From the IMG/VR virus record IMGVR_UViG_3300032288_004529, positions 1 to 50,740 of that record: a stretch of DNA of 50,740 nt; one strand, given 5' to 3'. This document shows positions 19,507-50,740 of the stretch, piece by piece; position 1 is the first letter of the stretch, and every line of letters starts with the position of its first letter. Source of the stretch: a virus. The notes under the pieces were generated by a model. It ran no database searches. It saw nothing but the letters and a program-made list of their open reading frames with translations, and was not told the DNA's origin. The position numbers were made by a program, and so were the translations under genes.

Positions 19507-21345
19507 TTACTCTCTTTCAGGAATGACAGTTATTCTAATGTCTTGATCTCTAATTGAAAGAATAGTTCTTAATTCAGATAGAATATCTTTGGATCTAGTT
19601 CTTCCATATATTTTAATTGAATTTCCAGTATAAGAATCTATTTTTAACTTGTTCAATATGACTCTTCCAGTTTCATAGTCCACACTTCCAATGTCTAAAA
19701 TATCAGTATGTTCTATACCAGAGTCCGATTTTAACTTAATAGTGCCTAATCCATCGTCTTCTAATATGACTATTTTACCAGAAGATATGAACTGAGAAGA
19801 ACTGATAGCACTCAAATAATTTGCAGGATGTGTTTTTTGCAGATCAGCAAAATCATCTTCCAATGCTTGCTGAAAATCTATTGTATAGTCAGTTTCAATT
19901 CCAAGTTGTGGAATTAAAGAACGTATTGCTTTGACAGTTGTATCATTGCTGATAATGCTTCTATCAGTATTATCAATTGCCGTAACTAAATTACTGTATC
20001 TAAATTTAACATTAAAATCATCTATATTAGTTGAATTGAAAGTTCTAATTGTATTCAACACCAAATCTTTAATAGTTTCTTGGCTTGAAGATGTTAAATT
20101 GATATTGTATCTAACCATTGTTTCTATATCCAGATGCATAAAGTCTGGATCGATAAAGACTGGGTCTATGGACAATGAAGCACGTGGTTTGATAAAATTG
20201 TAATACTGTTCTTTTCTAATGTCCGGAACACCGTCTACATTTTTTAAGTCAACTGCAATGAAAACTTTACCAAATTGTGGAGGATCTATTTCTTCGCCGC
20301 CGAACACAGATACTGCATTTATTTCTGGGAAATTGATTTTCAATAGATTTTCATAATCTTCAGCTGTAACTGCTCTTTCTTGGGAAGTAAAATATCTAGG
20401 AGCGTTAAATTTTATTGATTCTAAAGATTCATTAATTGAACCCTGTGAAGCAACATATAACGTATTCACAGCTACGTTTGAAAATGTACCTATTGGGCCA
20501 TCTGCCTTAAAGGTATTACACCCATTGGGTAATTCACCTTTAGTAGCACGGTACTCACAGACTATTACTGCATTATCTGCTGGTTTTCTACCAATTACAC
20601 CATCGCCAAATAATACTTCGTATTTTTCACCTTCACAACCCTGTACGAAATATATCTGTGAGTTAGCTCCTTTTCCAAACAAAGACGTTGCGCGTAAGTA
20701 GTTATATACGTCTGCTCCATTGTTCTCAAGAACAATTACACTTAATGAATCCGTGTCTATAGTTGGATTAGATAAAACGAATCTTTGTGTTGGATCTGAA
20801 TAATTCACATTGAACGTATCAGTTACATATTGCCCTTCATAGATAGTAATTTCACCGGTTGAATAATCATACCTCGTGTTTGCATTACCTACAGGTGTGC
20901 TTTTTAATGAAGTAGTAAGAATGGTTTTATCTATAGTAAACGTGAATGTGTTCGAACCAACTCTTGATGTAAACGAAGTACCTTTAGGTATCGAAATGAA
21001 TGTAACAGGCGCAGTATCTTCACTTGAAGTCAAAGCAGAGATTATTACTTCAACATTCGCACGAGCCGACTTGAAAGACCTTGGAACGTAGTTAAGCTCC
21101 TTAGCTCTGGAAATTACGCTTTCTCTCAACTGAGCGCTGTCTAAAAACATCTCATTTCCGACCATATTCAAATAGAAAGAATTCATGTATGTATTATAAG
21201 CTAATATTTCAAGAAGAACATTGATGTTACTTCCTTCGAAATCGTAGTCTTTGAAAGCAGACTGTGCTTTCAAATAGTTCTTAAAATTATCTTTTATAGA
21301 ACTAAAATCTAAATTTACTAAATTGATGTTTGTTGTATTTGCCAT
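19507..21345 (-). CDS. 6: Baseplate wedge protein gp6 (612 aa)
   Basis: Homologue of T4 gp6 (660 residues), which forms the inner wedge ring of the baseplate. The N-terminus is strongly diagnostic: 'FKDYDFEGSNINVLLEILAY' matches T4 'FLDYDFEGSRLNVLCDLLAY', followed by 'LRESVISRAKELNYVPRSFK' matching 'LRSSVVQAAQDNGYLPTSKS'. The segment 'ERAVTAEDYENLLKINFPEI' (about 325-345) is the usual gp6/gpJ-family motif. Length is normal and no insertion is evident, unlike gp7 and gp8. Its ATG overlaps the stop of gp25 by one base, which suggests translational coupling. Confidence 0.95.
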   Translation of the reverse strand: MANTTNINLVNLDFSSIKDNFKNYLKAQSAFKDYDFEGSNINVLLEILAYNTYMNSFYLNMVGNEMFLDSAQLRESVISRAKELNYVPRSFKSARANVEVIISALTSSEDTAPVTFISIPKGTSFTSRVGSNTFTFTIDKTILTTSLKSTPVGNANTRYDYSTGEITIYEGQYVTDTFNVNYSDPTQRFVLSNPTIDTDSLSVIVLENNGADVYNYLRATSLFGKGANSQIYFVQGCEGEKYEVLFGDGVIGRKPADNAVIVCEYRATKGELPNGCNTFKADGPIGTFSNVAVNTLYVASQGSINESLESIKFNAPRYFTSQERAVTAEDYENLLKINFPEINAVSVFGGEEIDPPQFGKVFIAVDLKNVDGVPDIRKEQYYNFIKPRASLSIDPVFIDPDFMHLDIETMVRYNINLTSSSQETIKDLVLNTIRTFNSTNIDDFNVKFRYSNLVTAIDNTDRSIISNDTTVKAIRSLIPQLGIETDYTIDFQQALEDDFADLQKTHPANYLSAISSSQFISSGKIVILEDDGLGTIKLKSDSGIEHTDILDIGSVDYETGRVILNKLKIDSYTGNSIKIYGRTRSKDILSELRTILSIRDQDIRITVIPERE

Positions 21346-21776
21346 TATCTTACTCTATAAAGAGGTACGTTGATGGTTATAACGTTCTCTATGGTCGTAG
21401 CGTAAAAAGTTATAGTAACCATATACGCGTTTTGATCTGGGTAACCGCTCGCAATAACATCTATCAACTTTGCTCTAGGTTCATAGTTCTCAATCGTTTC
21501 TCTTATCTGATTTACAATACTAACTTCTGTTTGTGGGCTTATAGGCTCAAACAGAAGTTTTTGAAGATTGGAACCTAAATCGGGTTGAAATAATCTTTCA
21601 TATTTATTTGTAAAAAGTAAGTTCTTTATCGATCCAATGATGGCATCTTCATTTCTATTGGTTACAACTTGACCATTATCTGGATGAGCGTTTAGATTCA
21701 CCAAAAAATCAGAATAAAGATCTTCGCTTTTTGGCCTTTGCGCTGTGTATCGATCTGCTACTCTTGGTAATGCCAT
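21345..21776 (-). CDS. 25: Baseplate wedge protein gp25, gpW/gp25 family (143 aa)
   Basis: Homologue of T4 gp25 (132 residues), the conserved wedge protein that contacts the sheath and is essential for sheath assembly in contractile systems. The gp25 core is visible: 'NEDAIIGSIKNLLFTNKYER' then 'PDLGSNLQKLLFEP' and 'IRETIENYEPRAKLIDV', the usual helix pair and EPR motif of the family. The length is typical. It is followed immediately by gp6, as in many contractile-tail operons. A GATAAATA late-promoter-like box lies 25 bases upstream of its ATG. I see no strong Shine-Dalgarno sequence. Confidence 0.95.
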   Translation of the reverse strand: MALPRVADRYTAQRPKSEDLYSDFLVNLNAHPDNGQVVTNRNEDAIIGSIKNLLFTNKYERLFQPDLGSNLQKLLFEPISPQTEVSIVNQIRETIENYEPRAKLIDVIASGYPDQNAYMVTITFYATTIENVITINVPLYRVR

Positions 21777-25048: not shown

Positions 25049-26197
25049 TTAACCACTGGTTCCACCAGGGACTCCTAGATTCGATAATGCTTGTGAAACG
25101 CCAGATGAAATTTTAGACCCCAAATCTTTTAGTCTTTGAGCACTATTTGTTGCTCCTGCGCCATAATCATTAGCAGTAATAATTTCTATTTCTTGAAATA
25201 GAAAGCTAAATACTATAAACGTCGGTGCGTTAGTTCCTTTGAAAAATGATGGTCCGTTAGGTGTATAGTTAATGTTTATAGCTGTTATTAAACCTCTTTT
25301 ATACAATGGTGTAGTATCCTCATCAAGACCATGTATATCAATTTTAACCATATGAGGATAATCCATCACATTACCATTTCCCTGTGAAAGCGTTGGAAGA
25401 ACCAATGATTTAATTTGTTTTAACATATCTTTCAATACATTACTATCTTCTGGGGACTTAGGGGTAAATACCCAACTAAATTCAATAGCTGGTCTTAAGT
25501 CTACACCATTAAAGAATATTGATATGTGTGGATTAGGAATAGCGCCGGCGTATTGACCAACGATGCCTCCTATGGTTTCGCCAGTATAGCCCACACCAGC
25601 AGAATAACCAAACCCAATAGCGTCTTCAATATAGTCATTTCTTGTAGCGCGCCCTTCACCCGTGGCTTCACCTAAAAGGTTCTCTACTATGGGTATAGCA
25701 GCGCCTATAGTTTTTAAATTAGTAGGAGCAACATCAATAGTATGCTGCTCTGTTAAAATTCTAGGAACAGGTAAGTGCACTTGAAGAACTGATGAAAATG
25801 CACCTTTATCGAAATTACTTGGTCTTTTATATTTTGCAAAATCTATAGTTAAGAATTCTGTTCTAAGATTATCAGTTGGGTATTGAATCGGTGCTGACCA
25901 AATAGATTGTTGTGCTAAGACAGCCGCTGGATCATTAGAAGTATTAAAGTTTTCGGATCTTGATGCAAATAAGTTTAATCCAGCACGATTAAATTGTTCG
26001 CCTAAAGGAGAAGAAATAGAGTCGGTTTTCGATGTAATTATGTTTTTTATGCCATCGAGTGATAATCCTTTGTTTGCTAATGCGCTGCTCAATGCGCCCG
26101 CACCCTGACTGCCTAGCGAACTTGCGCCGGTGGCAAGAGACCCAACGCTCTTTCCAACATCGCTCGTGAAATTGAGTGAATCAAACGCTGCAGACAT
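25049..26197 (-). CDS. 48: Baseplate tail-tube cap gp48-like (382 aa)
   Basis: Homologue of T4 gp48 (364 residues), the tube-fold ring between hub and tail tube. 'FSWVFTPKSPEDSNVLKDML' (about 235-255) aligns with T4 'FTWDLTPRSTEDLMAIINIY'; 'LITAININYTPNGPSFFKGT' (about 310-330) with 'QIQSIRFDKTPNGNFNGLAI'; 'FLFQEIEIITANDYGAG' with 'ITMREIITLNRASLYAG'. The N-terminal 60 residues are Gly/Ser/Ala-rich and probably flexible. It is the first gene of the minus-strand baseplate operon, with a leader of about 14 nt from the late promoter at 26217-26224 and an AGGGG Shine-Dalgarno sequence 6 nt before the ATG. Confidence 0.88.
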   Translation of the reverse strand: MSAAFDSLNFTSDVGKSVGSLATGASSLGSQGAGALSSALANKGLSLDGIKNIITSKTDSISSPLGEQFNRAGLNLFASRSENFNTSNDPAAVLAQQSIWSAPIQYPTDNLRTEFLTIDFAKYKRPSNFDKGAFSSVLQVHLPVPRILTEQHTIDVAPTNLKTIGAAIPIVENLLGEATGEGRATRNDYIEDAIGFGYSAGVGYTGETIGGIVGQYAGAIPNPHISIFFNGVDLRPAIEFSWVFTPKSPEDSNVLKDMLKQIKSLVLPTLSQGNGNVMDYPHMVKIDIHGLDEDTTPLYKRGLITAININYTPNGPSFFKGTNAPTFIVFSFLFQEIEIITANDYGAGATNSAQRLKDLGSKISSGVSQALSNLGVPGGTSG

Positions 26198-26216
26198 CTA
26201 TAACCCCTTTTAAAAG

Positions 26217-26224
26217 TATTTATA
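26217..26224 (-). promoter_or_regulatory. T4-type late promoter for gp48 and the minus-strand baseplate operon
   Basis: A perfect TATAAATA on the minus strand. The box conventionally lies at -13 to -6, so the start would be near 26211, giving a 14-nt leader that contains AGGGG before the gp48 ATG. It overlaps the plus-strand box by four bases, forming the palindrome TATTTATAAATA. Confidence 0.75.
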
Positions 26225-26228
26225 AATA
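26221..26228 (+). promoter_or_regulatory. T4-type late promoter for gp4 and the plus-strand operon
   Basis: A perfect TATAAATA on the plus strand, in a 37-bp divergent gap. The predicted start is about 26234, one base before the gp4 ATG at 26235. No Shine-Dalgarno sequence precedes that ATG. The mRNA would be leaderless or nearly so. Confidence 0.75.
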
Positions 26229-26234
26229 GTTTTT

Positions 26235-26675
26235 ATGAGTTATAAAGGCTTTTTTAAACCTAAACACCCTAAAAAATACAAAGGAAATCCTACTAATATT
26301 ATTTATAGGTCTTTGTATGAACTTAAGTTGATGACGTATTTGGATAAAAATTCAAACGTCTTAGAGTGGGCAAGTGAAGAGTTCTTTATTCCTTACATGT
26401 CTCCTATAGACGGAAAAGTTCATAGATATTTTCCTGATTTTTGGATCAAAAAAATAAATAAGGAAGGCTTAATAGAAGTCTTAGTGATTGAAGTTAAGCC
26501 ACAGAAGCAAACTGTACCACCAGTTCCTCAGAAAACAATAACCAAAAGTTATTTATATGAAGTACAAACATGGGGCGTCAATCAAGCAAAATGGGAAGCT
26601 GCAAACAGATATTGTTCTAATAAAAACTGGAAGTTCTTGATAGCAACAGAAAAAGAATTAGGAATAATCGTATAA
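26235..26675 (+). CDS. 4: Head completion protein gp4, PD-(D/E)XK-like (146 aa)
   Basis: Homologue of T4 gp4 (150 residues), needed to finish DNA-filled heads before tail joining. Matches to T4: 'FKPKHPKKYKGNPTNIIYRS' with 'FKPIHPEKYEGDYTNIIMRS', 'WASEEFFIPY' with 'WSSEETVIPY', and 'RYFPDFWIK' with 'RYFMDFKVK'. A nuclease-like signature is visible: Asp in 'YFPDF', then 'VIEVKP' (E-x-K). The conserved N-terminal block fixes the start at 26235, because the next ATG lies inside the fold. There is no Shine-Dalgarno sequence in front of it and a late promoter sits 7-14 bases upstream. The next gene overlaps by one base (TAATG). Confidence 0.93.
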   Translation: MSYKGFFKPKHPKKYKGNPTNIIYRSLYELKLMTYLDKNSNVLEWASEEFFIPYMSPIDGKVHRYFPDFWIKKINKEGLIEVLVIEVKPQKQTVPPVPQKTITKSYLYEVQTWGVNQAKWEAANRYCSNKNWKFLIATEKELGIIV

Positions 26676-45863: not shown

Positions 45864-46745
45864 TTATTCTTCTAGTAGACCATGTCTAATGACGTATTTT
45901 TTTAGTCCGTCACCTAATTCAATTTGTTCAAAGTCTTTAAATCTGCCATCATCTTTTTCTTTATGAATACAGATCATATTTGATTCATAGAATTTTGGTA
46001 TGTTTTCTTGGTTACACTTTATGTGAGAATAGACCCAAATATTTTCATTATGTTTGTTATGATTGTTAGTATTGAACTTAGGATAAACATGCCAATAACA
46101 ATTATAGTCTAAATCTTTAATGGCTTTTAAAACTAAATCGTTTCCTTCTATTCCATTGAATTCAATGTACATGTGTGGTTTGTCTCTTGTAAGCAGTTGT
46201 TTACCTGATTCTATAACTTGTACTTCAGTTCCTTCGCAGTCCATCTTGATAAAGTCAATTGTTTTCCCAAGAAAATCAACATCATCTAACCGCATGATTT
46301 GAGTGCTAAGATTAGACGTTTCATCAACGCTATTGATATTGAATTCACCATAGTTGAATTTTTCATAATTAGGAGTATGAATAACTGTTTTAATGAAATC
46401 ATTTCTATCAGCTACAAATGATCTTATTGGTACTATATTAAAGCAGTTGTTCATTACAATATTGCTGTTCAGTAGCAGAAAGATGTAAAATTGTGGTTCA
46501 AATGAAAATATAAAATTCTTATTACATCGCTGTGCTAACCAAACGGTGTGTGTTCCTACATTTGCACCTAAATCAATACAGCACGATTCTTCCGTTACTA
46601 GTTTGTCTATGACATCAAATTCTTGATCGGCCCATTCTCCATATAAGTGCAGGCATGTTCCAATAGGATCATCTCCTTTAAATACATTTATTAAACCATA
46701 TTTTGTATTGAGACTTGCTACTTTTGGAGTATCAATAACTATCAT
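45864..46745 (-). CDS. FkbM-family SAM methyltransferase (293 aa)
   Basis: Class I SAM-dependent methyltransferase of the FkbM type. Motif I is 'CIDLGANVGTHTVWLAQ' (about 55-71), post-I acidic residue in 'FSFEPQFY', and 'TIDFIKMDCEGTEVQVIESG' (about 165-185) is the characteristic FkbM motif. FkbM enzymes O-methylate sugars and small molecules; in phages the substrate is unknown, and capsular or lipopolysaccharide sugars are possible. The last 60 residues contain Asn/His-rich and acidic segments of unclear role. It overlaps the GIY-YIG-like gene by 4 bases (ATGA) and is followed by the basic membrane protein after a 3-base gap. Confidence 0.88.
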   Translation of the reverse strand: MIVIDTPKVASLNTKYGLINVFKGDDPIGTCLHLYGEWADQEFDVIDKLVTEESCCIDLGANVGTHTVWLAQRCNKNFIFSFEPQFYIFLLLNSNIVMNNCFNIVPIRSFVADRNDFIKTVIHTPNYEKFNYGEFNINSVDETSNLSTQIMRLDDVDFLGKTIDFIKMDCEGTEVQVIESGKQLLTRDKPHMYIEFNGIEGNDLVLKAIKDLDYNCYWHVYPKFNTNNHNKHNENIWVYSHIKCNQENIPKFYESNMICIHKEKDDGRFKDFEQIELGDGLKKYVIRHGLLEE

Positions 46746-47143
46746 TTTTTAATTCCAATATTATTGCGTGTAAATTTCATCATTATATTATCATTGTAGT
46801 AATCGTCAGTTTCCAATACGTTATGTATGAATTGAAGCTTGGCTTCCCAGTAATTACATTCACCTCTTGTTTTACACAGTCGCAAGATCGATCGTTTGAA
46901 TTTATCTTGGCCTTCTTTTCCAATGTCTAAAAGTAAACGTGAAGAAGAGCCCCAGTAGTCTTTCCAATCAGACTCCTTGCGGCACCTTTTTCTTTTACCT
47001 TTAATTTGTTTGGATGAAGCTTTGGTGAAGTACTTACGGCCGATGTATCGTTTACCTGTTTCGATATTTTCTATCAGATAAACGAACCCATAGTATTCAT
47101 TCACAAGTTCATAGTCTATTTCTTTTTCTTCGTAGAGCCACAT
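46742..47143 (-). CDS. GIY-YIG-like nuclease (133 aa)
   Basis: Small putative GIY-YIG endonuclease. 'GFVYLIENIETGKRYIGRKY' carries the GIY-like and YIG elements, 'DWKDYWGSSSRLLLDIGKEG' matches the following 'DYYGSS' region of phage enzymes, and 'NYWEAKLQFIHNVL' supplies the catalytic Glu (the 'WE' position). A strongly basic segment ('KQIKGKRKRCRKE') lies between. It has no separate DNA-binding domain, so it may be a free-standing Seg-like or repair-type nuclease. Its Shine-Dalgarno sequence (AGAGG) sits in the loop of a 9-bp hairpin, with a late promoter positioned to start inside it. It is located just downstream of nrdB. Confidence 0.78.
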   Translation of the reverse strand: MWLYEEKEIDYELVNEYYGFVYLIENIETGKRYIGRKYFTKASSKQIKGKRKRCRKESDWKDYWGSSSRLLLDIGKEGQDKFKRSILRLCKTRGECNYWEAKLQFIHNVLETDDYYNDNIMMKFTRNNIGIKK

Positions 47144-47174
47144 AATATCATCCTCTTAGATGATATTATTTATT
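47144..47174 (-). promoter_or_regulatory. RBS-sequestering hairpin with internal late promoter
   Basis: On the minus strand AATATCATC (47167-47159) pairs perfectly with GATGATATT (47152-47144), loop TAAGAG. AGAGG, the Shine-Dalgarno sequence, lies in the loop and first stem base, and the ATG follows the hairpin directly. AATAAATA (47174-47167, 7 of 8 to TATAAATA) would start transcription near 47161, inside the 5' arm, so late mRNA could not form the stem. Long transcripts from nrdB would. Confidence 0.65.
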
Positions 47175-47273
47175 TCATTTTATACGATTTAAAAGATATG
47201 CAAAAGCTAAGACAGTTACACACAATATATAATAACTGTATTCTGCTATTAATTGTGTAACTAAGCTGCCCAT
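47175..47273 (-). CDS. Possible 32-residue membrane peptide
   Basis: A 32-codon frame starts at ATG 47273, overlaps the last 13 bases of nrdB and ends at TGA 47177-47175. Sequence 'MGSLVTQLIAEYSYYILCVT' continues with 'VLAFAYLLNRIK': one hydrophobic helix with a basic end. GGGA lies 6 bases before the ATG. It fills the 117-base gap between nrdB and the GIY-YIG-like gene. Without homologues to compare, chance cannot be excluded. Confidence 0.38.
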   Translation of the reverse strand: MGSLVTQLIAEYSYYILCVTVLAFAYLLNRIK

Positions 47274-48247
47274 ACTTCTTCCCATGATCCTGATAAGGCG
47301 CCTTTTGCGTAATCGGTTGCACGATTCTCAAAGAAGTTTGTATGAATAGGTGCATTGATCATCGTCTCAACCCAAGGCAAAGGATTCTTTTTAACTTTAA
47401 ATATTCCTTTCAATCCTAAAGAAATGAGGCGACGGTCAGCAATATAGCGAATATAATGCTTGACATCAGCAGCAGTGAGATTTTCCATATCACCAATTGA
47501 GAATGCAAGGTCGATGAATCGATCTTCGAGCTCAACCATCTTTTCAGCGATTTTATAAATTTCAGACTTGAGACTATCATTCCATATCTCTCTGTTTTCT
47601 TCAATAAAAGTTCTAAAAAGTTTGATCATCGATTCTGCATGCATTGTTTCATCAACGATAGACCATGTAATGATCTGACCCATTCCTTTCATCTTTCCAT
47701 GGCGAGGAAAGTTAAGTAGCATAATGAAAGATGAGAACAGCTGCATACCTTCAGTAAACGCGGAGAATGCAGCGATCTGTTGCGCAATTGTGTTAGCATC
47801 TTGACCTGCAATCTGTGTAAAGAAATCATGCTTAGCTCTCATCTCTTCATACTGCATGAACTCATTGTATGTTGTTTCAGGCATGCCTAATGTTTCAATC
47901 AGATGTGAATATGCAGCAACATGCAATGCTTCACGAGCAGCAAACCCACACAGCATCATCCTTACTTCAGGTTGAGGAAAATAAGGGAGGTAATTATGAA
48001 CGTAGCCGCCAGCAACGTCAATATCTCCTTGTGTAAAAAATCTAAAAATATTTGTAAGAAACTTCTTTTCTTCATGGGTTAACCTCTTCTTCCAGTCTTT
48101 GACGTCTTCCATCATTGGGACTTCAGTATGAATCCAATGAGACTGCTCATGCTTAAGCCAAGCATCATAAAAAAAAGGATATTTGAATGGCTTAAAATAA
48201 GATCGTTCATCAGTTAGCTTCAATTCTTTGAATTGTTTTGATTTCAT
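47261..48247 (-). CDS. nrdB: Class Ia ribonucleotide reductase small subunit NrdB (328 aa)
   Basis: Beta subunit that houses the tyrosyl radical and di-iron centre of ribonucleotide reductase. Metal ligands and radical residue are in place: Asp in 'FTQGDIDVAGG', Glu, His and Tyr spaced E-x2-H-x3-Y in 'REALHVAAYSHL', Glu in 'AFTEGMQL', Glu and His in 'IVDETMHAESM'. The C-terminal 'ALSGSWEEVWAA' is a typical tail that binds NrdA. I start it at ATG 48247 (AAGG 8 bases before), since earlier codons belong to the homing endonuclease frame. The length of 328 residues fits the short NrdB group found in marine phages and bacteria. It overlaps the endonuclease gene by 38 bases. Confidence 0.95.
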   Translation of the reverse strand: MKSKQFKELKLTDERSYFKPFKYPFFYDAWLKHEQSHWIHTEVPMMEDVKDWKKRLTHEEKKFLTNIFRFFTQGDIDVAGGYVHNYLPYFPQPEVRMMLCGFAAREALHVAAYSHLIETLGMPETTYNEFMQYEEMRAKHDFFTQIAGQDANTIAQQIAAFSAFTEGMQLFSSFIMLLNFPRHGKMKGMGQIITWSIVDETMHAESMIKLFRTFIEENREIWNDSLKSEIYKIAEKMVELEDRFIDLAFSIGDMENLTAADVKHYIRYIADRRLISLGLKGIFKVKKNPLPWVETMINAPIHTNFFENRATDYAKGALSGSWEEVWAA

Positions 48248-48926
48248 TTGTTTTACCTTTTTTATTTGCTCCAGTTCCACCCTGATAACCATCCATTTTA
48301 CCTCTTATCCAACCATCTAGCTGCTGGCCTTCAAAAAAATATGCATGTTTTTTACCATTATTGTATATCTTACGCCCTTTAGTATTATTTCCATTATTTT
48401 TACTTCCTATCAATATATCACCAATTTTACCATTTTGTATTCTTCCGTGTTTCCATCCATCAATCAAACTCTTAACACGGCGATTCTCAACACCATTGTT
48501 CACCCAAAATGTATCTTTTGTAATGTTTCTACATCTTTTGGATCTTTCGTCATGGGGCTCTTTAATGATATATTTTGTTTTTGGAAATGATTTACCTATT
48601 AATGACTTGCTTATTTTTTGTTTAACTGAATCAGAAATTTTATTTCCTTGTGGTGCACCATCTAATCCATTTTCATTTATTAAATTTGCCCATCTATTTG
48701 ATTCTATTATATTATGGTTTAAAGAAAACTCAACTGCAAAAGATGAACATTCTTTTTCTGTTGAGAAAGTTTTAATGATTTCAGTGGTAAAATTATTGCC
48801 ATGTTTTTTTAAATGGGTTTTCCAATATTTACCTGAACCTGTGTAAGTAACAGGATCTTTTCTTGTTGTTTTACCAAAATATTTTAGACCGGTAACGTTA
48901 TGTGTCTTTATATAAAGATAAATCAT
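48210..48926 (-). CDS. GIY-YIG homing endonuclease between nrdA and nrdB (238 aa)
   Basis: Free-standing homing endonuclease of the Seg/GIY-YIG type. Catalytic domain: 'MIYLYIKTHNVTGLKYFGKT' (degenerate GIY and 'YFG'), 'YTGSGKYWKTHLKKHG' and 'FAVEFSLNHNII' with the catalytic Glu. Downstream, 'SVKQKISKSLIGKS' is a NUMOD3-like DNA-binding motif, and two copies of a motif follow: 'WVNNGVENRRVKSLIDGWKH' and 'IYNNGKKHAYFFEGQQLDGW', each with 'G(R/K)' endings. The 3' end overlaps nrdB by 38 bases. No Shine-Dalgarno sequence precedes the ATG, suggesting low expression. It is a selfish element that would cut and copy itself into the nrd locus of related phages. Confidence 0.9.
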   Translation of the reverse strand: MIYLYIKTHNVTGLKYFGKTTRKDPVTYTGSGKYWKTHLKKHGNNFTTEIIKTFSTEKECSSFAVEFSLNHNIIESNRWANLINENGLDGAPQGNKISDSVKQKISKSLIGKSFPKTKYIIKEPHDERSKRCRNITKDTFWVNNGVENRRVKSLIDGWKHGRIQNGKIGDILIGSKNNGNNTKGRKIYNNGKKHAYFFEGQQLDGWIRGKMDGYQGGTGANKKGKTNEIKTIQRIEAN

Positions 48927-48955
48927 ATGGGTTTTTACATATATTTACGAGTTTT

Positions 48956-49159
48956 TTAATCATTTGTTTTATGTCCGATCATATGTATCTTTTCACGTTC
49001 GATCATGTCGATGATGAAAGTTGTTATCTGTATCTCTTTGTTAAGAAAGAATAACTTAGTCTCAAGTTCTTTGAGCTTTTGTTCATAGAACGCAAGTTCT
49101 TTTTGCTTTTCCTCGCGCATCCTATAAACATCTGCCAATAAGACTATTTTATTGTCCAT
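48956..49159 (-). CDS. Small coiled-coil protein downstream of nrdA (67 aa)
   Basis: A small helical protein starting at ATG 49159 (or the ATG one codon earlier), overlapping the nrdA stop. 'REEKQKELAFYEQKLKELET' and 'LFFLNKEIQITTFIIDMIER' give an almost unbroken coiled coil. GAGGG lies 4 bases before the chosen ATG. I have seen small coiled-coil genes beside nrd genes in marine T4-like phages, but their role is not known. A longer frame from 49171 runs back into nrdA and is not needed. Confidence 0.68.
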   Translation of the reverse strand: MDNKIVLLADVYRMREEKQKELAFYEQKLKELETKLFFLNKEIQITTFIIDMIEREKIHMIGHKTND

Positions 49160-50740
49160 CATCCCTCGCAAGCTAGACAGGCTTCTCCTTCGGTTAACTG
49201 CTTCATATCAATTTCTTCAATGATGTGTCTTTCGATCTTCCTTGCTACTTTATCCGCTTTTCCAATTTTCTCAGAGCGGCAATAATACAACGTCTTTAAG
49301 CCGCGCTTCCAAGCAAGAAAATGAACGGCATGAAGATATATGATATTTATATTCGGTCTAAAGAAAAGATTGACGGACTGTGCTTGATCGATGAACTCTT
49401 GACGATCGGCCGCATGTTCGATCACCCAACGTTGATCGATTTCCATTGATGTCTTAAACACGTCCTTCTCCCAATCAGAGAGAAATTCTAGATGTTGAAC
49501 TGACCCGTCGTTTGCAATGATCGAAGACCAAATCTCATCATATTGCAATTTCTCATCTTCTTTACATTTTTCTACAATGAGCTTATCCAAGAATCTATTC
49601 TTGTAGAATGAAGCACCACTTAACGTATCTTGACGATATGCGTTTGCGCGATATGGCTCAATAGATGGAGAAGTGTTACCCATGATGATTGAACTCGATG
49701 CATTTGGTGCTATGGCCATAAGGTGGCTGAATCGTAGCCCAGTTCCTTTAGCGTCAGGAGCTTCACCTCTCATAGATCCAAGTTGCTTGTTGGATTCATC
49801 AAGCTGTGTACGAACGTGTTTGAAGATCTTCCTGTTCAATCCTACTGCCATAGCGGATTCCCATGGAATGGATTTTTTCTGTAAATATGCATGAAACCCA
49901 AGAGCACCAACACCAATGCTTCTTTCACGGAGAGCTGAGAACTTTGCTCTCTTGATGCTGTTTGGCGCGTGATTTATAAAATACTCCAAAACATTATCAA
50001 GCATTTCAGCTATGTCGCGGAGGAACATCTTGTCGTTCTTCCATTCGTCGTAGTATTCTATATTCACCGATGAAAGACAACAGACTGCTGTTCTGTTCTT
50101 ATCAGTCGGCAAGACGATCTCAGAGCATAAGTTGGATTGCTTAATTGAAAGGCCTAACTTCTTTTGCCATTCAGGCAAGTGCTTGTTTGATGTATCTATA
50201 AAGTGGATGTAGGGTTCACCAGTCAACATCCTTGTCTCAAGTATCTTCTGCCAAAGTTCCTTAGCGGAGACCGTTTCCTTCACCTCTTTGTTGTGTGGGT
50301 CGACTAGGTTCCATGAGTCATCGGCCTCTGGGTCCAACATACACTTCTCGATAAGTTGCATGAAGTCATCGGTGATGTTGACGCCGTGATGAAGGTTGAG
50401 TGTTCTCATGTTGGGGTCGCCAGTAGGCTTTCTCATATCGAGAAACATCACGATGTCTGGGTGAGAAACGTCTAGGTAAGCTGCATAAGAGCCGCGGCGC
50501 GTCTTACCTTGGCGATAAGCTAGAGAAGATGCATCATAGATCTTAAGGTGTGGCATAACACCGGTAGACTTTTCATCAGAAGAGCGAATGCCAACACCAA
50601 TACCAATGCCGCCACCAAGCATCGACAGCCAGTTGACTTCTGACAAGCAATCCACAAGTCCTTCAGCGGTATCATGAAGATACGGTAGAAAGCATGAAAT
50701 AGGTAGTCCATGCTTACTACTACCGAATGAAAGAATAGGA
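49159..50740 (-). CDS. nrdA: Class Ia ribonucleotide reductase large subunit NrdA, 5' part outside the window (at least 526 aa)
   Basis: Alpha subunit that reduces ribonucleotides to deoxyribonucleotides. The frame is open to the window edge: 'PILSFGSSKHGLPISCF' near 50700 holds the first active-site Cys of the family. 'QSNLCSEIVLP' supplies Asn, Cys and Glu of the radical site, and 'AVCCLSSVN' the second redox Cys. The C-terminal 'EGEACLACEG' is the CxxC that re-reduces the enzyme. The ATP-cone, if any, lies outside. The base composition is less AT-rich than in the baseplate genes. It is transcribed with the coiled-coil gene, endonuclease and nrdB. Confidence 0.96.
   Translation of the reverse strand, partial: PILSFGSSKHGLPISCFLPYLHDTAEGLVDCLSEVNWLSMLGGGIGIGVGIRSSDEKSTGVMPHLKIYDASSLAYRQGKTRRGSYAAYLDVSHPDIVMFLDMRKPTGDPNMRTLNLHHGVNITDDFMQLIEKCMLDPEADDSWNLVDPHNKEVKETVSAKELWQKILETRMLTGEPYIHFIDTSNKHLPEWQKKLGLSIKQSNLCSEIVLPTDKNRTAVCCLSSVNIEYYDEWKNDKMFLRDIAEMLDNVLEYFINHAPNSIKRAKFSALRERSIGVGALGFHAYLQKKSIPWESAMAVGLNRKIFKHVRTQLDESNKQLGSMRGEAPDAKGTGLRFSHLMAIAPNASSSIIMGNTSPSIEPYRANAYRQDTLSGASFYKNRFLDKLIVEKCKEDEKLQYDEIWSSIIANDGSVQHLEFLSDWEKDVFKTSMEIDQRWVIEHAADRQEFIDQAQSVNLFFRPNINIIYLHAVHFLAWKRGLKTLYYCRSEKIGKADKVARKIERHIIEEIDMKQLTEGEACLACEG

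Follow-up and report, generated by a model that had tools for sequence, protein, structure and literature searches.

The gene for a 133-amino-acid GIY-YIG nuclease in an environmental T4-type phage appears to possess a translation start that is used only late in infection: RNA entering from upstream would fold over the start, and a late promoter box at the base of the hairpin would give rise to a shorter RNA from which most of the hairpin is missing. We put the probability of this reading at about 0.85. The gene lies in a stretch of 50,740 nt (the window), which comprises the whole of IMG/VR record IMGVR_UViG_3300032288_004529, itself a fragment. The features around the nuclease start are the following:

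45864..46745, minus strand: downstream gene, FkbM-type methyltransferase (PF05050, E 7.9e-12), whose ATG overlaps the nuclease stop
46742..47143, minus strand: GIY-YIG nuclease gene, 133 aa, SegE-like (PF19835, phrog_447)
47142..47153, minus strand: 3' arm of the hairpin, from the fold, whose last two bases are the AU of the start codon
47152..47157, minus strand: Shine-Dalgarno-like AAGAGG, from direct reading and the fold, with AAGA in the loop and GG paired
47158..47169, minus strand: 5' arm of the hairpin, from the 12-pair RNA fold, its outer three bases being the end of the box
47161, minus strand: predicted late RNA start inside the 5' arm, placed by position from the box and a 5-nt spacer
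47167..47174, minus strand: T4-type late promoter box AATAAATA, from direct reading
47261..48292, minus strand: nrdB, the upstream gene on the same strand (PF00268, E 1.9e-75)

Read directly from 47174 to 47141, the minus strand runs AATAAATA, ATATCATC, TAAGAG, GATGATATT and ATG. The original prediction had described a perfect 9-bp stem (AATATCATC and GATGATATT), which is indeed present and which RNA folding lengthens to 12 pairs (47169-47158 with 47153-47142), 11 of them Watson-Crick and one a G-U at the loop. The predicted minimum free energy is -12.4 kcal/mol against a mean of -4.3 for shuffled sequences (z -3.8), and one in 200 shuffles folds as well. In the fold the final ATA of the promoter box supplies one side of the three outer pairs, and the bases running through to the U of the AUG supply the other; the 3' arm, which had been said to touch the ATG, thus makes that contact and goes further, with the A and the U of the start codon themselves paired. 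The placement of AGAGG in the loop was right for one part of the motif, since the predicted loop is AAGA and the AAGAGG is exposed in its AAGA portion and paired in its GG. The two strands of the window together contain 1964 ATG trinucleotides; 49 of them carry a stem of -6 kcal/mol or better at this position and four carry one as strong. Among the scanned window ORFs of at least 40 codons, an exact box adjoins a stem at the start of the nuclease gene only. An Rfam search of 46000-48500 returned no match at E up to 1.

The nuclease belongs to the PF19835 family (SegE_GIY-YIG; E 2.8e-37, 128.1 bits against a curated cut-off of 25) and matches phrog_447 with an E of 5e-43. Genes of phrog_447 bear the name 'NAD synthetase' in many public records, a name that looks wrong, and some of them (L084, L086) set the annotated start upstream of the conserved one. 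Both near relatives with an identified upstream gene (L252, L287) likewise have the 133-aa nuclease gene behind nrdB, so that no empty site is seen for it. The upstream nrdB is a possible source of RNA that reads through into the hairpin, and a search of the minus strand from 46600 to 49300 found no terminator-like site. The methyltransferase probably shares the late RNA of the nuclease.

The box core NATAAATA has been reported as the late promoter of cyanophage S-PM2, close to the TATAAATA of T4 (PMC2984593). The window has 17 copies of it, of which 15 are on the minus strand, and the box alone is therefore not rare. The same 7-base core stands ahead of late genes: TATAAATA is found 26-27 nt ahead of the start of a gp48-like tail tube cap (baseplate) gene (25049-26197) and GATAAATA 32-33 nt ahead of that of a gp25-like wedge gene (21345-21776). 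At 26197-26235, between the divergent gp48-like and head-closure (phrog_218) genes, TATAAATA is present on both strands, forming two late promoters back to back. Across the window and four long related records, an exact ATAAATA stands at -55 to -18 of 108 of the 830 gene starts, and several of these genes look structural from their sequences. The late-transcription protein gp55 (phrog_234) was found in eight of the 11 records searched, including all four scanned relatives; it was not found in the window record, which is a fragment.

In T4 the spacing between box and RNA start is 5 nt. From the position of the box and this spacing, late initiation is predicted at 47161, inside the 5' arm; sitting at the base of the stem, the box would be placed so as to yield RNA without that arm. 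We envisage that RNA running in from nrdB carries the whole hairpin and that on this long RNA pairing takes up the 3' end of the Shine-Dalgarno sequence, the spacer and the AU of the start codon; with the loading region paired, 30S subunits could therefore not load. A phage late RNA polymerase of the gp55 type would initiate at AATAAATA and place the RNA 5' end inside the 5' arm, whereby the late RNA would lose about eight of the 12 pairs and, once freed, would be translated into the GIY-YIG nuclease and the overlapping methyltransferase. The start point, the read-through, the repression and the late timing are what we infer from the arrangement. Folding of the two transcripts agrees with the scheme for the long RNA, with its stem of -12.4 kcal/mol, and less fully for the late one, as a short stem of -3.7 kcal/mol can remain on RNA starting at 47162.

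Homologues of the nuclease were gathered by five protein searches of viral contigs, to which 14 phage records and the window were added, giving 397 sequences. The start was taken as the last in-frame ATG (else GTG or TTG) at or before a conserved Trp codon; 395 sequences had a usable match, 389 a start codon (365 ATG, 24 GTG or TTG) and 387 at least 60 nt upstream, and merging identical upstreams, many loci being the same contig retrieved by several queries, left 185 distinct upstream regions. A contiguous stem was accepted if its 3' end fell between -6 and +2 relative to the start and its energy was -6 kcal/mol or better. Such a stem occurs at the start codon in 89 of the 185 homologue upstreams and in 18 of 885 other gene starts of the same loci. 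Where an exact box is present, 62 of 85 homologues possess a stem, compared with 3 of 25 boxed controls. Imperfect stems escape the strict test: of the 23 exact-box homologues that failed it, several have visible interrupted stems. Box (with at most one mismatch) and stem together, hereafter the device, are found in 84 of the 185 and not both in the other 101, a share that is biased upwards because all five gathering queries carry the device; the sampling favours device-bearing clades and such fractions are not those of the whole family. Among named isolate phages, none of the 13 counted has the device (14 records were read; L084 had no start under the start rule and was dropped).

The register of the elements recurs. 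In 35 of the 62 exact-box cases with a stem, the stem base lies three bases inside the box (offset -3), as it does in the window, and in 30 of the 62 the stem ends at the U of the AUG; with the T4 spacing, eight pairs would be lost in 44 of the 84 device cases. Computed removal of the 5' arm raises the opening of -14 to +2 from a median of 0.30 to 0.51 (0.30 to 0.66 in the window), with a rise in 83 of 84 cases that arm removal must give. The exposure of the Shine-Dalgarno core is nearly flat under the same operation (median 0.53 to 0.56; window 0.62 to 0.49) and was rejected as a sign of a switch by itself. As this core lies largely in the loop, occlusion must act via the spacer and the start codon.

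The stems vary far more than their pairing. The 84 device cases fall into 26 sequence-unrelated stem groups, sharing less than about 75% over the segment from box to ATG. Own arms pair at 1.0, which holds by definition of a stem, and when 3' arms are swapped between groups the paired fraction is 0.45, or 0.42 for inner pairs without box and start codon. In the clade of the window (76 to 87% protein identity to it) all 72 cells are paired, two pairs have changed on both sides and none is broken; sliding the partner arm lowers the pairing to 31-73%. With six distinct rows behind it, this clade test is small on its own. In the inner stems, counting one member for each of the 26 groups, G-U outnumbers A-C by 14:2 compared with 27:15 in shuffles (binomial P 0.04), an excess that points to pairing in the sense RNA. 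The original prediction had proposed comparison with related phages, in which arms varying without compensation would speak against it: the arms proved highly variable with their pairing kept, and uncompensated variation was not seen. Its interpretation, that the nuclease stays silent on nrd transcripts and is made only late, is well supported by these comparisons.

These comparisons also bear on the possibility that the inverted repeat acts at the DNA level, as an operator covering the late promoter and bound for instance by the nuclease itself, and that the RNA fold is incidental. There is precedent, as I-TevI binds an operator overlapping its own late promoter (PMC2988022), and the repeat in the window does overlap the promoter box. 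However, stem sequences differ completely among relatives while the pairing stays, the sense strand shows a preference for G-U over A-C and the 3' arm lies on the start codon, all of which makes an operator unlikely as the explanation, though the repeat may have a second role as one.

A somewhat less probable alternative retains the RNA hairpin and attributes its release to ribosomes terminating on the upstream frame instead of to a new late RNA, the box then serving mainly to supply a stop codon. A terminating ribosome would cover the 5' arm, and of the 72 device cases that have an upstream frame of at least 40 codons, 27 (for example L177, L302, L316) do have the stop of that frame inside the box. 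In the window, though, the nrdB stop precedes the nuclease ATG by 118 nt, and of the 84 device cases, 20 have their nearest frame of such length ending at a distance of more than 45 nt upstream and 12 have none. Direct stop-start overlap with the upstream frame is found in 36 of the 101 homologues without the device versus none of the 84 with it (P 2e-11, kinship not corrected), as if the two were alternatives.

It is very improbable that a host sigma-70 type promoter, and not a late one, yields the short RNA. Weak matches do overlap the box (TTTAAA-17-AATAAT at 47193-47165, and another at 47204-47177), but 20 such matches in the stretch compare with 10.8 expected by chance, and what relatives conserve is the ATAAATA core in a fixed place at the stem base. 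The chance meeting of a palindrome and a box-like word in AT-rich DNA, to which 2.5% of window ATGs with a stem of -6 or better and 17 copies of the box core might lend themselves, can be practically discounted, given that shuffling the box-to-ATG segment with box and ATG kept yields a stem in 4.6 of 85 homologues on average (at most 11) versus the 62 observed, that the arms covary, that the device recurs in 26 unrelated forms, and that the conserved Trp codon adjoining the ATG speaks against misplaced starts in relatives.

The device is concentrated on GIY-YIG genes. In the window and the four long records, 10 of 13 boxed GIY-YIG genes have a stem versus 3 of 95 other boxed genes (Fisher P 2e-9); when the four genes that guided the selection of the records are set aside, 6 of 9 GIY-YIG genes have one (P 4e-6). 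The GIY-YIG calls were made by Pfam, PHROG or similarity, and a regular expression alone flagged 6 of the 10. The 13 boxed starts with a stem thus comprise the 10 GIY-YIG genes, two homologous tail-tube genes (one phrog_45) and one unassigned gene, and the 95 without a stem include three GIY-YIG genes and several that by motif look like HNH nucleases. The tail-tube genes, at G003:152960 and G004:194168, have the same box-plus-stem start on a late structural gene. At one GIY-YIG gene (G003:C1:38508, minus strand, in L416) the loop of a 19-bp stem contains a TATAAATA box, and the 3' arm of this stem the Shine-Dalgarno sequence; this variant would work alike, since its late RNA would begin past the 5' arm. 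Relatives of the nuclease at G002:116296 comprised 17 loci, mostly partial or distant, and those inspected were its source (L437) and L438. A PF01541 census of 26 further records pointed to 14 places, with the start recovered by motif search in four loci, and gave no count.

A second GIY-YIG gene of the window (48210-48926, minus strand, 238 aa) forms an insert of about 0.72 kb between a small ORF (48956-49171) and nrdB. Three relatives (L252, L287, L244) align on both sides of it with few or no bases between, an empty site at the nrdB start, and the N-terminus of nrdB reads MKSKQFKELKLTDER in the window and MIKKLTLKLTDER in L252, as if the insert had supplied a new nrdB start. The device was considered for this gene and rejected, the candidate consisting of a near-box CGTAAATA and a weak fold of -4.0. 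Its relatives were found at 18 loci, of which 15 were processed and one was too short; none of the 14 readable has a box and a strong stem. Two of them (L464, L465) show a hairpin at the start codon but no late box, perhaps reflecting another promoter or another control, and a more distant relative, at G003:43409, has the device. Since the 238-aa gene and its readable relatives are without it, not every GIY-YIG gene carries the device.

On a protein tree of the homologues (128 rows less than 88% alike, 140 columns, 57 of 125 inner branches open), the device label changes 21 times, 11 of these changes being forced by well-supported branches; the tree does not tell gain from loss. We lean towards a broader view, in which the GIY-YIG nuclease genes of environmental T4-type phages, as a class, make use of a self-contained start module of about 32 nt that pairs the end of a late box with the AU of the start codon. 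Such a module would often be lost, regained or rebuilt, its stems would turn over faster than the protein, it would be exchanged for stop-start overlap, and it would include the box-in-loop variant with the 19-bp stem at G003:38508.

Late-start hairpins of T4 have so far been case studies on a few genes. The 26 unrelated stems in one nuclease family, all keeping the register of box, stem and start codon, add evolutionary evidence that the pairing is selected, and they lead to the prediction for phages known only from metagenomes that these make their GIY-YIG nucleases late. Within the same genomes, the preference for GIY-YIG genes above other late genes turns the question of why these nucleases must not appear early into a directly testable one.

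Counterparts of the arrangement are known. The hairpin control of I-TevI is described together with similar arrangements for I-TevII, I-TevIII, segB and Aeh1 mobE (PMC2988022), and structures hiding the ribosome-binding site are named for e, soc, 49 and I-TevI (PMC3014915). Our stem test recovered box and stem in T4 at soc (-7.0), 49 (-12.4), e (-12.3) and I-TevI (-10.5); it missed I-TevII and segB despite good free energies (-17.4 and -19.4), found nothing at I-TevIII, a truncated gene annotated as deleted, and at ten other T4 starts detected no stem that reached -6. The likeness to I-TevI, e and soc asserted in the original prediction is therefore correct, both by these accounts and by the T4 sequences, which give the same geometry. 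I-TevI is the closest counterpart: like the gene of the window it encodes a GIY-YIG nuclease, has a 12-pair stem ending at the U of the AUG and an exact ATAAATA box at -30, and sits among genes of nucleotide metabolism (PMC2988022). In contrast, I-TevI is encoded in the td intron, whereas the window gene is free-standing behind nrdB and matches PF19835. T4 segB and Aeh1 mobE are, like it, free-standing phage endonucleases with the same reported control (same source), and the claim that the device is here 'on a different gene' consequently holds in a narrow sense only. They differ in that the stem of segB is bulged and T4 mobE is annotated as H-N-H, and their sequences are unrelated to that of the window (Aeh1 by description only). 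T4 e, soc and 49 share the hidden ribosome-binding site (PMC3014915) but are not GIY-YIG genes. T4 denA (endonuclease II) is likewise a nuclease gene directly after nrdB, but it belongs to phrog_1111 and lacks both an exact box and a stem of -6 or better. The kind of control is hence already known, since T4 I-TevI has this mechanism in an almost identical geometry. The open-licence literature yielded no report of the device on a nuclease family of the PF19835 type or of its covariation, and within that literature, as far as searched, what is new is the recurrence across the family, the turnover of the stems, the GIY-YIG bias and the alternative of stop-start overlap.
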